Shown here piece after piece: positions 21,915 to 27,569 of a stretch of DNA of 29,581 bases (within the stretch, counting starts at the first letter, position 1; every line of letters begins with the position of its first letter). The stretch covers positions 1 through 29,581 of IMG/VR virus record IMGVR_UViG_3300025869_000060; one strand, given 5' to 3'. The translations under genes and the position numbers were made by a program. Source of the DNA: a virus. Below the pieces are notes generated by a model. That model did no database searches and was not told the DNA's origin. It saw only the letters and a program-made list of their open reading frames with translations.

Positions 21915-21928
21915 GGTGACTAGTCACC
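21915..21928. repeat. 14-bp palindrome, copy 1
   Basis: A perfect palindrome, GGTGACTAGTCACC. It directly abuts the TAG of the 66-aa gene and lies 19 bases before the ATG of the 54-aa gene, just upstream of its ribosome site. As RNA it can fold into a five-bp hairpin with a CUAG loop. Confidence 0.85.
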
Positions 21929-22129
21929 CTATTGAACTCTTATTATTTCTAAACCATCATCATCATATTCTACAGCATCAACTCCACTATTAACATATAA
22001 CTTTTCTATATAATCTCTTGCATCATGTGAAGATTTAAAATACATAACATCACCATTGAACTTTGCTAATGGTTCTAATATAATATCTTTATCTTGAGAT
22101 ATAAAAGCTATTACAAAGTTTTTATTCAT
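21929..22129 (-). CDS. Hypothetical protein, 66 aa
   Basis: The 66-residue product starts with a basic stretch (MNKNFVIAFISQDKD), contains a likely alternating alpha/beta arrangement (FNGDVMYFKSSHDARDYIEKLY), and ends acidic. TAAGGT lies seven bases before the ATG. Its TAG stop directly abuts the 14-bp palindrome at 21915-21928. No family recognised. Confidence 0.55.
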   Translation of the reverse strand: MNKNFVIAFISQDKDIILEPLAKFNGDVMYFKSSHDARDYIEKLYVNSGVDAVEYDDDGLEIIRVQ

Positions 22130-22169
22130 GTTCGTACCTTACATTACTTCTTGAAACATGTCAAGTTTA

Positions 22170-22730
22170 TTATCCATCATACGCACCTAAGTTTGCAAAC
22201 TCTTGTCCCATAATATCAAAGTCAACATCTATCTTATACGCACCACTAGCATACCAATCTGGCATAGGTCTTGTCTTCTCCCACTTAGCTATATCTTTCT
22301 TATCATTAGCATAGTATCTTCTGTATGATAATACAGCATTATCTTCTTCTTTATGTACATCTGGCATACATAGTGGGTGTGGTGTACCTTGTCTGCTCAT
22401 GTGTTCAAAAGCAAAGCCAACATTATCTATTGTTAAGTCCATGATAATAGCTTGGCACTTGTGTATATTGTTATACCTTCTGGTGTACTCAAAGCATAGC
22501 TCCATGCCATGTCTCCATAGCCAATCATAATTATGTGCATCATCTCCTGCCCATAGTGTACATGGGTGGTTTCTATGTGCTTCCTTGTATGGTACTCTAT
22601 CTGCTGAACCATACCTATGCCATACAGAACACAACATCTGTGCAGTTTCTAATGGCATCTTTACTATGTGCTTATCACATTGCATCTGTGCAGATATGAT
22701 AGGGTCTTTGTCTAATACAAATATGTTCAT
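22170..22730 (-). CDS. Conserved phage protein beginning MNIFVLDKDP, possible DNA-repair-like enzyme, 186 aa
   Basis: The protein has 186 residues with many conserved-looking polar residues: Q17-C-D-K-H near 15-21 and VKMPLETAQML at 23-33, then HRNHPCTLWAGDDAHNYDWLW (about 52-72), EYTRRYNNIHKCQ and a RRYYANDKKDIAKW block near 137-150. I associate the combination MNIFVLD-DP, CDKH-VKM-LE-AQ and HPCT-W with a family in marine phages that is sometimes labelled pyrimidine-dimer glycosylase-like. I am not sure of that label. The His/Asp/Trp-rich profile suggests an enzyme. The ATG overlaps the previous stop (ATGA). Confidence 0.6.
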   Translation of the reverse strand: MNIFVLDKDPIISAQMQCDKHIVKMPLETAQMLCSVWHRYGSADRVPYKEAHRNHPCTLWAGDDAHNYDWLWRHGMELCFEYTRRYNNIHKCQAIIMDLTIDNVGFAFEHMSRQGTPHPLCMPDVHKEEDNAVLSYRRYYANDKKDIAKWEKTRPMPDWYASGAYKIDVDFDIMGQEFANLGAYDG

Positions 22731-22969
22731 CTGTGTAACACTCCCAATTTAACTAACACATCTAATTCTTTGTTAATTTTTTGTAATACTTCACGTAAAT
22801 TATTGTCTTTAAATTCACAAAGTAATTCTATACTATCGTCAGCTACAGAAAAATCTTCCTCTTCCCATTCCTTTTGTTCCTCTTTCCAATTTTTAACATC
22901 TTTCTCTGTGCCAAAAGAAATAGTATATGCTTGGTCGTCATGAACTTTTCTAATATATATTTTAGTCAT
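22727..22969 (-). CDS. Hypothetical acidic protein, 80 aa
   Basis: The product has 80 residues: an N-terminal beta-like segment (TKIYIRKVHD), a very acidic middle (EEQKEWEEEDF, 31-41) and a C-terminal helix (LREVLQKINKELDVLVKLG). The ATG overlaps the stop of the 51-aa gene upstream (TAATG) and its own stop overlaps the next ATG (ATGA). Highly acidic small proteins in phage early regions include DNA mimics, but nothing here is diagnostic. Confidence 0.55.
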   Translation of the reverse strand: MTKIYIRKVHDDQAYTISFGTEKDVKNWKEEQKEWEEEDFSVADDSIELLCEFKDNNLREVLQKINKELDVLVKLGVLHR

Positions 22970-23124
22970 TAGCTATTCTCCTTAAATAATTTCTTTTTTA
23001 TTACTGCCCATGCTTCTTCTAGTTCTTCACGTTCTGCTTTGTTCTCTTCAGTATCCTCATGGATACAAGTATTAACATAAGATTGTAAAGCAAAACCTAC
23101 AGTTGTTATTGCATCATCTATCAT
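22969..23124 (-). CDS. Small helical protein, 51 aa
   Basis: This gene fills the gap between 22969 and 23114. The ATG at 23124 has AAGGAG at seven bases; an in-frame ATG two codons earlier is too close to the ribosome site. The TAA overlaps the next ATG by one base. The 51-residue product has a hydrophobic N-terminal helix and a charged Glu/Lys helix (EENKAEREELEEAW) with Trp and a basic end. Tight overlaps at both ends support it. Function unknown. Confidence 0.6.
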   Translation of the reverse strand: MIDDAITTVGFALQSYVNTCIHEDTEENKAEREELEEAWAVIKKKLFKENS

Positions 23125-23314
23125 TATCATTCTCCTTTTGCATTTCACTTTCCTCCTCTATTTCTTTTTCAATTTCAGCAAGGCATTCATAACACATATA
23201 ATTATCATCACATGGTATACGATTAACAAATCTACCAGAGCCAAAGCTAGTATCTTCACCACATACTTCACATGGTTGTATACCCATTTGCTCTGGAGTT
23301 TTAGACCATGTCAT
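23114..23314 (-). CDS. Small zinc-knuckle-like protein (two CxxC), 66 aa
   Basis: From the ATG at 23314, which overlaps the previous TAA (TAATG) and has GAGGAG upstream, the product is 66 residues. Four Cys in two pairs, C-E-V-C at 15-18 and C-Y-E-C near 41-44, with one more Cys between them at 35, fit a treble-clef or rubredoxin-like zinc site. The C-terminal tail is very acidic. Small zinc proteins of this type are common among phage early regulators, but no specific family is recognised. Confidence 0.6.
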   Translation of the reverse strand: MTWSKTPEQMGIQPCEVCGEDTSFGSGRFVNRIPCDDNYMCYECLAEIEKEIEEESEMQKENDNDR

Positions 23315-23502
23315 TATACATTCTCCTCTGTTTCTATATCTCCAAACCATTCATCAATAGCATTGGCTACATGGCTAGGCATATCATGATTTAGTCGTAC
23401 TAATTTAGGACTATCATTCCACTCTACATATAGTTGATAGCTTACTATGTGTCTGTCTGTAGTTGGTATTGTATTTATATCTCTACTCATCTTATTAGGC
23501 AT
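23314..23502 (-). CDS. Hypothetical protein, 62 aa
   Basis: The start is the ATG at 23502, seven bases after GAGGAG; a TTG further out is part of that ribosome site. The 62-residue product has a beta-like strand IVSYQLYVEW and a helix near HVANAIDEWFGD, ending acidic. It overlaps the upstream gene by eight bases and the downstream one by one. No family recognised. Confidence 0.55.
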   Translation of the reverse strand: MPNKMSRDINTIPTTDRHIVSYQLYVEWNDSPKLVRLNHDMPSHVANAIDEWFGDIETEENV

Positions 23503-23689
23503 AATGATACTCCTCAAAAAATTCTTGTATTACTCTCAAGTCTTTGTAAGTATGTTCTTTTAATTTAGATGTTGAAATTTTATCAGCACATTCCACACCA
23601 TAATACTCTTCATAGTGTCTTTGCTCATCACCTATCCAATTGTCATGCAACATACCAAAATGTTTTTCAGCTAATTGTTTATCACTCAT
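23495..23689 (-). CDS. Hypothetical protein, 64 aa
   Basis: The 64-residue product is rich in His, Tyr and Glu (HYEEYYG, FFEEYHY) and mostly helical. GGAG lies seven bases before the ATG at 23689, which overlaps the upstream stop by eight bases (ATGAGTGA). It belongs to the chain of micro-genes that runs without gaps from 24861 to 22727. No motif assigned. Confidence 0.55.
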   Translation of the reverse strand: MSDKQLAEKHFGMLHDNWIGDEQRHYEEYYGVECADKISTSKLKEHTYKDLRVIQEFFEEYHYA

Positions 23690-26672: not shown

Positions 26673-26716
26673 GGTGCTAGTTAGCTATTGGAGGTGCTTG
26701 GTAGGGTGTAGGTGCT
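26673..26716 (+). repeat. Three direct GGTGCT repeats upstream of an early promoter
   Basis: GGTGCT occurs at 26673, 26693 and 26711, spaced 20 and 18 bases, about two helix turns, in an unusually G-rich stretch of an AT-rich genome. They lie upstream of the promoter at 26619-26646 and behind the terminator of the first early gene. They could bind an activator or act as iterons; no function is proven. Confidence 0.45.
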
Positions 26717-26757
26717 TAGATATATAGTAAAGGATAGTGAAGGGCTCTTAAATTAGA

Positions 26758-26794
26758 CATAAAAAAAGCCCTTATAAATTAATACAAGGGCTTT
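26758..26794 (-). terminator. Rho-independent terminator after the 204-aa early gene
   Basis: On the minus strand AAAGCCCTT (26786-26794), a 12-base loop and AAGGGCTTT (26765-26773) form a nine-bp stem followed by a run of T (26761-26767). It is 20 bases after the stop at 26814 and isolates the first early unit from the next. It is the clearest terminator in the window. Confidence 0.85.
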
Positions 26795-26813
26795 AATATT
26801 AGATGTTTAAAAG

Positions 26814-27428
26814 TTAAGCTATTTTTACATCCTCGCTTTCTTGATTAAGTTTATTTAATTGAACTTTCATTAATTCAATTTCCATTTGCCTAATGGATAT
26901 TTGAGAAATTAATTCATCTCTATTCATTTTAGAAATATCTAATTTCTTTTCATTCTTTTCAATAGGTGCTTCTTTATCAGATTGAACCTTATTACTAGGT
27001 AAATCTTTTTTAACTAGAAATTCACCATCTATAACTTTATGAGAATTCTTAAAAGTCTTAACACTTGTCATAGTATGTAAATCTAATTTCTCTAATTCTC
27101 TTAAAACTGATTGATGGGTTGAATTAGATTTAATAATAGATTTTATTACTGGTGAATTAGCTACCTTTCTCTTTTCCTTGAATTCAGTCTCACTCATTCC
27201 AGTTCTAATAATACTTTTCATATATAAAGCTTTCTCTTTATCATTTAATTCAAAAGAATATGCGCTAATCATATGGGCTACTATTATAAATCCTTCTTTA
27301 TCTACCAAGCCAGTAGCTTTATTTAATACCTTCTTACTTTCTAAGTACTTAGGCATAATTAAACCTGTAGCTTTAATAGATGCTTGAATTGTCTTATTTA
27401 GTTTTACTTCTTTTATAGTGTTAGTCAT
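26814..27428 (-). CDS. First early protein, Lys/Ile-rich with C-terminal coiled coil, 204 aa
   Basis: The protein has 204 residues and is the first leftward gene, with AAAGGAAA before the ATG and a promoter match 70-100 bases upstream. A helical N-terminal part (1-115) includes a stretch that could be a winged or tri-helical DNA-binding domain (SPVIKSIIKSNSTHQSVLRE region). It is followed by a polar linker (130-165) and a Leu/Ile/Met-rich coiled coil (MNRDELISQISIRQMEIELM). It has its own rho-independent terminator (26758-26794). Position and architecture suit a transcription regulator or takeover protein that might bind the nearby palindromes, but no motif proves it. Confidence 0.6.
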   Translation of the reverse strand: MTNTIKEVKLNKTIQASIKATGLIMPKYLESKKVLNKATGLVDKEGFIIVAHMISAYSFELNDKEKALYMKSIIRTGMSETEFKEKRKVANSPVIKSIIKSNSTHQSVLRELEKLDLHTMTSVKTFKNSHKVIDGEFLVKKDLPSNKVQSDKEAPIEKNEKKLDISKMNRDELISQISIRQMEIELMKVQLNKLNQESEDVKIA

Positions 27429-27494
27429 TTTTAGTTTCCTTTATTTAAGTTCGCTATATCCAAATGGTTATAACGTAGTTTTTCTTGGTTACCC

Positions 27495-27525
27495 ATTATA
27501 TAATTCAATCATCTCATATTGTCAA
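27495..27525 (-). promoter_or_regulatory. Leftward early promoter
   Basis: On the minus strand TTGACA (27520-27525) is followed after 17 bases by TATATA, or after 19 by TATAAT (27495-27500). Transcription would start near 27488 and give a leader of about 60 bases before the 204-aa gene. A copy of the palindrome lies about 30 bases upstream of the -35, where an activator or repressor could sit. Confidence 0.55.
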
Positions 27526-27555
27526 ACAAATATATATATTTAAATAATATTATAG

Positions 27556-27569
27556 GGTGACTAGTCACC
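27556..27569. repeat. 14-bp palindrome, copy 5
   Basis: An identical palindrome in the divergent control region, about 30 bases upstream of the leftward -35 box. It is the only copy not placed between a stop codon and a close-by start. Confidence 0.85.

Follow-up and report, generated by a model that had tools for sequence, protein, structure and literature searches.

Introduction

Symmetric repeats in the gaps between genes have previously been described, and left unexplained, in several lytic phage clusters. Cluster EG Microbacterium phages carry inverted repeats of the form GATCAACC-NN-GGTTGATC, for which no function has been explained (PMC7302621), and the 17-bp repeats of cluster O mycobacteriophages (TGTTCGG-NNN-CCGAACA) are likewise unexplained (PMC4351075). 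The stoperators of the temperate cluster A phages (L5/Bxb1) are 13-bp asymmetric sites, oriented with transcription, present in 20-30 copies genome-wide and recognised by a monomeric repressor (PMC6550527, PMC9283540). In cluster K, each extended start-associated sequence (ESAS) consists of two imperfect 17-bp repeats separated by a spacer that varies, and is coupled to a 13-bp ribosome-site motif that is conserved (PMC3203893). Here a symmetric repeat, GGTGACTAGTCACC, is described in a stretch of 29,581 nt from an uncultivated marine phage (IMGVR_UViG_3300025869_000060; the whole stretch is referred to as the window). It displays the trait typical of the cluster EG and O repeats, namely multiple exact symmetric copies, many of them in short gene gaps.

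In close relatives of this phage, sites of the same kind occupy matching places but are spelled differently from phage to phage. This suggests, for every phage, a fast-changing early control protein of its own together with a private set of switches matched to it. We consider it probable, at roughly 0.7, that the palindromes are operators of a phage-encoded dimeric early regulator, most likely the product of a 204-aa first early gene, which would dimerise, bind the sites and thereby affect transcription.

Results

A perfect palindrome occupies early-region gene gaps

A scan of the window located GGTGACTAGTCACC, a 14-bp perfect palindrome, in five exact copies at 21915, 25154, 26154, 26390 and 27556. 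All five are intergenic, in agreement with the original prediction made from this DNA, and gaps account for just 5.1% of the early operon (19206-27428), where four of the six gaps of at least 33 bp contain a copy. The placement that had been reported for the individual copies was also borne out: four lie between a stop codon and the next start, ending 18, 19, 26 and 27 nt 5' of an ATG, and two of these directly abut the stop (the TAG of genes 21929-22129 and 26168-26362). The remaining copy, at 27556, is upstream of the predicted sigma-70-like promoter of the first early gene (204 aa), in the gap that separates this gene from the divergent terminase large subunit (TerL) gene.

27556..27569, no strand: palindrome copy 1 (site #1), exact match; in the gap that separates the divergent TerL and 204-aa genes, centre about 74 bp upstream of that gene's predicted promoter start
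26390..26403, no strand: palindrome copy 2, exact match; 27 nt before the ATG of 26168-26362
26154..26167, no strand: palindrome copy 3, exact match; directly next to the stop of 26168-26362, with the ATG of 25972-26127 following after 26 nt
25154..25167, no strand: palindrome copy 4, exact match; within the gap 25151-25193, with an ATG following after 18 nt; opposite in orientation to copies 2, 3 and 5
21915..21928, no strand: palindrome copy 5, exact match; directly next to the stop of 21929-22129, with the ATG of 21731-21895 following after 19 nt; missing from this gap in relatives L113, L115 and L116
27495..27525, minus strand: predicted sigma-70-like promoter of the 204-aa gene, TTGACA-19-TATAAT; consensus score only, and read from the sequence

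That such repetition exceeds chance, as had been claimed, is indicated by dinucleotide shuffles of the window, which gave a mean of 0.53 and in none of 100 cases reached five. No further match to GGTGACTAGTCACC was present in the window with up to three mismatches allowed. Moreover, when the whole window was scanned under a general criterion (an inverted repeat with an arm of at least 6 in at least three copies), GGTGACTAGTCACC was the sole repeat returned. The phage's own IMG/VR record holds five copies and none of a reversed control pattern, and two near-identical contigs that extend the map (G001, 37 kb; G002, 35 kb) hold no copies beyond the early region. In four of the five copies the true repeat unit is longer, with ATAG preceding GGTGACTAGTCACC to give ATAGGGTGACTAGTCACC; judged by this flank, both orientations with respect to the genes occur, in a ratio of 3 to 2. 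The sequence that follows the palindrome varies among the window copies, except for a GAAAGGAACT block common to two of them.

Relatives carry palindromes of their own spelling

Relatives were taken as contigs with a related TerL, and were scanned upstream of TerL for any repeated inverted repeat. The genes in question are arranged in the window as follows.

28067..29572, plus strand: TerL, divergent neighbour of the early genes and anchor for finding relatives (phrog_38, E 8e-114)
26814..27428, minus strand: 204-aa first early gene (W204), candidate cognate regulator, matching the relatives' first-gene proteins in place and size and weakly similar to them in sequence; modelled as a helical core followed by a beta-hairpin, at moderate confidence
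26761..26794, minus strand: terminator-like inverted repeat and T run after the 204-aa gene, read from the sequence

At least three arm-identical inverted repeats were found upstream of TerL in 25 of 85 contigs, compared with none of 170 dinucleotide shuffles. Among 60 deduplicated contigs with at least 3 kb upstream of TerL, 20 are, when read individually, of the window type: a first gene of 170-260 aa divergent from TerL, together with short palindromes private to the phage. These palindromes are inverted repeats of 14-22 bp, in 2-6 copies in each of the 20 contigs, and approximately 16 different types occur in the clade (GGGTAACGTTACCC, TTACGCAAGGTTGCGTAA, ATTTACTCAATTGAGTAAAT, TTCAGTAGTACTACTGAA, GTTCTACGTAGAAC, TTGTGAAAATTTTCACAA, TTCTAGAAATTCTAGAA, GTTCGA-N7-TCGAAC, GTTCGG-N6-CCGAAC, GTCGA-N6-TCGAC and others). 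A 61-kb relative has seven copies and a 59-kb relative five, all exact and all within an early region of 6-8 kb. Usually one site lies between TerL and the first early gene, in most window-type phages at some 300-570 nt from where TerL starts, and the next lies after the first gene; the rest precede either a ribosome site or, by 40-105 bp, a predicted promoter. In L105, two copies (gene-sense 1767 and 1954 upstream of TerL) fall within coding sequence, each encoding the residues DYARLRKVDE in a different small protein.

An exact 14-mer scan of viral contigs returned 24 stretches, including the near relatives of the window. The other stretches were rejected as relatives, being unrelated, single-copy and within chance for the size of the collection. 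As judged by sequence comparison, the exact 14-mer is confined to near-identical contigs, and the putative system is conserved in relatives under other spellings. Among relatives that are not near-identical, the closest (primase 93-95%) have a seamless TAAGGAGAAAGTATG as the gap at 21915, and the element has therefore been gained or lost there as a unit of about 24 bp. The original prediction had held that relatives keeping the genes and losing the palindromes without compensation would count against it; genes without the palindrome are indeed what L113, L115 and L116 show at this gap, and the matter of compensation cannot be judged there, as these contigs stop short of the TerL-proximal regulator region.

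A second type of TerL relative lacks the first gene and has long hairpins in its gaps (L083, L080, L225, L087, L092, L093, L096, L103, L239, L242, L030 and L035). These hairpins, of 35-50 nt in gaps upstream of TerL, have an invariant core (e.g. AGTWCTTACGWACT) flanked by outer stems with compensatory changes among the copies within a genome. An RNA element is possible; the hairpins were set apart from the palindromes as a different element. Just upstream of TerL in L030-L035, L139 and L148, GCAATCTAAGTAGATTGC occurs twice, about 52 bp apart, within an origin- or operator-like set of short repeats. No repeats of the kind described here were present in the stretches read of the isolated pelagiphages HTVC027P, HTVC023P and HTVC115P or of phage 023Pt_psg01, and a TerL search of GTDB genomes gave no host link.

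The window has further features of note. The gene starts at 25979, 26127 and 26362 (minus strand) have a common ribosome-site block, GAAAGGAACTRANCAGAATG, which in two cases comes directly after the palindrome. Another inverted repeat, GTTACCATTTTGGTAAC, lies in 25151-25193 after the 261-aa gene; L115 retains it in the same place (1175-1233) with its loop inverted (TACCAAAATGGTA). The early operon also encodes a pyrimidine dimer DNA glycosylase (PF03013) at 22170-22730.

Palindromes change in concert and track the first gene

Relatives L051, L054 and L077 have six orthologous sites in common, at which the flanks are largely conserved and the palindrome has been replaced alike at every site. 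Between L051 and L054 (TerL 98%) all six sites have changed (58-63% identity), and most of the flanks are 75-92% identical.

The identity of the first gene follows that of the palindrome. Where two relatives have TerL identity of 90% or more, their first genes are 57-98% identical if the arms are the same and 23-37% identical if they differ; one different-arm pair is intermediate (52%), and its half-sites, TTACGCA and TTACTCA, are one base apart. L105 and L210 use the same half-site at a different spacing, and their first genes are 32% identical. A partial Mantel analysis with TerL controlled gave r = 0.21 (7 of 2000 permutations). Neighbouring genes do not track the palindrome, the 230-aa gene being 90-96% identical in both classes. 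In L246 and L253 (TerL 100%), the first gene and all palindromes have been exchanged as one block, and the early genes further downstream are 76-100% identical. Among the early genes of relatives with near-identical TerL, it is on sequence grounds only the divergent first gene, of about 200 aa, that tracks palindrome identity.

These data bear on two other explanations. The sites could be operators of a different phage regulator whose gene lies elsewhere, perhaps in the half of the genome outside the window, which is a 29.6-kb fragment in comparison with the 56-62 kb genomes of relatives; that no DNA-binding domain is recognised in the first gene would fit this. The tracking of palindrome identity by this gene alone and the block exchange in L246/L253 both speak for the first gene instead, and we regard a regulator from elsewhere as rather unlikely. 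The palindromes could also be recombination boundaries or mobile spacers for the shuffling of small early genes, as the original prediction had offered. The gain or loss of about 24 bp at the 21915 gap is in keeping with this, as are the different early gene order in the window and L115 and the recombination between sites also reported for some cluster O repeats (PMC4351075). However, spelling differs between phages, which leaves lineages without common homology through which to exchange; L115 shows rearrangement yet has no palindromes; the L246/L253 swap took regulator and sites as one block; and concerted change at fixed orthologous sites would not be expected. A shuffling role between lineages is accordingly disfavoured, and we hold it to be very improbable.

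The sites are probably DNA elements

Where copies differ within one genome the arms are fixed and the centre varies (L051, L054, L077, L236 and L257); only one copy, in L077, has a change in an arm. Centres that are asymmetric are found both ways round (L236, L246 and L289). Fixed arms, free centres and orientation flips point to DNA rather than RNA elements.

An early-mRNA hairpin or cleavage site controlling translation or processing, also put forward previously, would suit the 18-27 nt between four window copies and their start codons, and clade phages without the first gene do have long gap hairpins with co-varying stems. The arm and centre pattern is not that of such a stem, and no compensatory arm changes were seen in the palindromes of relatives. 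The window palindrome would form an RNA stem of just 5 bp (-4.5 kcal/mol), a search of Rfam gave no match, and site #1 lies upstream of a predicted promoter. An RNA element is thus disfavoured and is, in our estimation, improbable.

Over the clade, 62 of 70 sites are intergenic (18.5 expected). Seventeen of the 70 lie 40-105 bp upstream of predicted early-strand promoters (2.2 expected; none of 1000 shifts), six lie just downstream of predicted promoters (2.3 expected), and none overlaps a predicted promoter core. Promoters likewise lie in gaps, and this enrichment is therefore partly positional.

The placement also bears on partition or replication sites (parS-like or iteron-like) serving an extrachromosomal state. 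Multiple exact palindromes near one gene would be expected of these, and no tyrosine integrase (PF00589) was found in ten near-complete relatives of 56-62 kb, in which serine integrase and ParA were not searched for. The window sites, however, do not cluster but extend over 5.6 kb, where they precede single genes and promoters, and no ParB-type domain was found in the first-gene family; partition sites are about as doubtful as recombination boundaries.

The first-gene product as candidate regulator

When W204 was compared with the L051-type proteins, its best-of-family score was reached by 13 of 2000 shuffles and its score against the L051 protein by none of 2000. AlphaFold models of W204 and the L051 protein, both of moderate confidence, are alike in the order and spacing of four helices. 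A Foldseek search of viral models gave a 213-aa hypothetical phage protein as the sole match (E 0.03). The 204-aa protein had no match in phage records, and just one near-identical contig was found to carry it.

Discussion

The clade-wide comparison supports the suggestion, contained in the original prediction, that the palindromes are operators for a dimeric phage regulator. A two-fold symmetric protein encoded by the phage would bind them as double-stranded DNA. At site #1 this regulator would control its own promoter; at the other sites it may control the early operon, either by action from upstream of promoters or as a stoperator-like block to RNA polymerase in operon gaps. The upstream sites fit activation or upstream-bound repression, and the operon-internal sites before ribosome sites fit a roadblock. 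As to the sign of the effect, we lean slightly towards early-gene shut-off over activation. If regulator and sites evolve together, each phage type would acquire a private specificity. Since the ten near-complete relatives have no tyrosine integrase, a role in lysogeny is not indicated, though possible.

Several points weigh against this interpretation, first with respect to W204. A family profile built without W204 does not recognise it above shuffles; the likeness of the two models, whose confidence is in any case moderate, is not independent, because the W204 alignment contained the L051 protein. No known DNA-binding domain was found in the 204-aa protein or its family, the 204-aa protein having no Pfam domain, and a Foldseek search of the PDB with two models gave no fold match. 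In addition, the independent palindrome swaps are few (about 5-6), and the promoter control does not fully separate real association from sites and promoters both lying in gaps. Finally, four of the five window sites have no strong promoter nearby, and a role in transcription initiation therefore covers site #1 only.

A more speculative extension, which we rate as unlikely, is that these phages, in which no tyrosine integrase was detected, have a system resembling heteroimmunity. By means of a hypervariable early regulator of new fold and its private palindromic operators, each of the co-circulating phage types might silence its own kind in co-infection, or escape being silenced by others, and specificity would shift by concerted replacement of all sites. 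With approximately 16 palindrome types, orthologous positions and a candidate cognate protein, what such repeats bind becomes testable by swapping proteins and sites; if the proposal is true, these uncultivated marine phages would offer a rare natural series of co-evolving regulators and operators.

The parallels that had been drawn with known systems were apt in part. The L5 stoperators stand as the best functional analogue: they too are repeated sites that lie partly at promoters and mostly away from them, and their motif differs between phages and co-varies with the phage regulator, as is seen here in the relatives rather than judged from the window alone. Unlike the asymmetric 13-bp stoperators, the sites described here are perfect palindromes that keep no orientation to transcription (3 to 2 in the window, and flipping in L236, L246 and L289), and they occur in 2-7 copies confined to the early region of phages in which no tyrosine integrase was found. 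The parallel with ESAS is weaker. Start-associated sequences and ESAS are likewise associated with gene starts in a non-structural gene region, and their inverted-repeat consensus is subcluster-specific; the window, in contrast to the paired ESAS, has a single perfect 14-mer.

The original prediction did not name the closest look-alikes, the inverted repeats of clusters EG and O. Those of cluster EG number 8-10 copies and, like the window palindromes, are symmetric repeats in short intergenic gaps; they lie at one genome end and typically 14-22 bp before start codons. Cluster EG phages are without integrase or repressor genes; in ten relatives of the window phage no tyrosine integrase was found. 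Unlike the window clade, cluster EG has one sequence common to all three phages and no proposed cognate gene, and the phages and their hosts are unrelated to those considered here. The cluster O repeats are symmetric, with invariant arms, a variable centre and no fixed orientation, again in phages without integrase, and their arms resemble the GTTCGG-N6-CCGAAC of L072 and L077, probably through convergence. They differ in numbering 34 copies genome-wide, with about one-third in coding sequence and most not near promoters, and in having the same sequence in all five phages. No such palindromes were found described in the pelagiphage literature searched. What is new in comparison with all of these systems is a spelling private to each phage within one clade, the joint replacement of the palindrome across orthologous sites, and the naming of a candidate partner.

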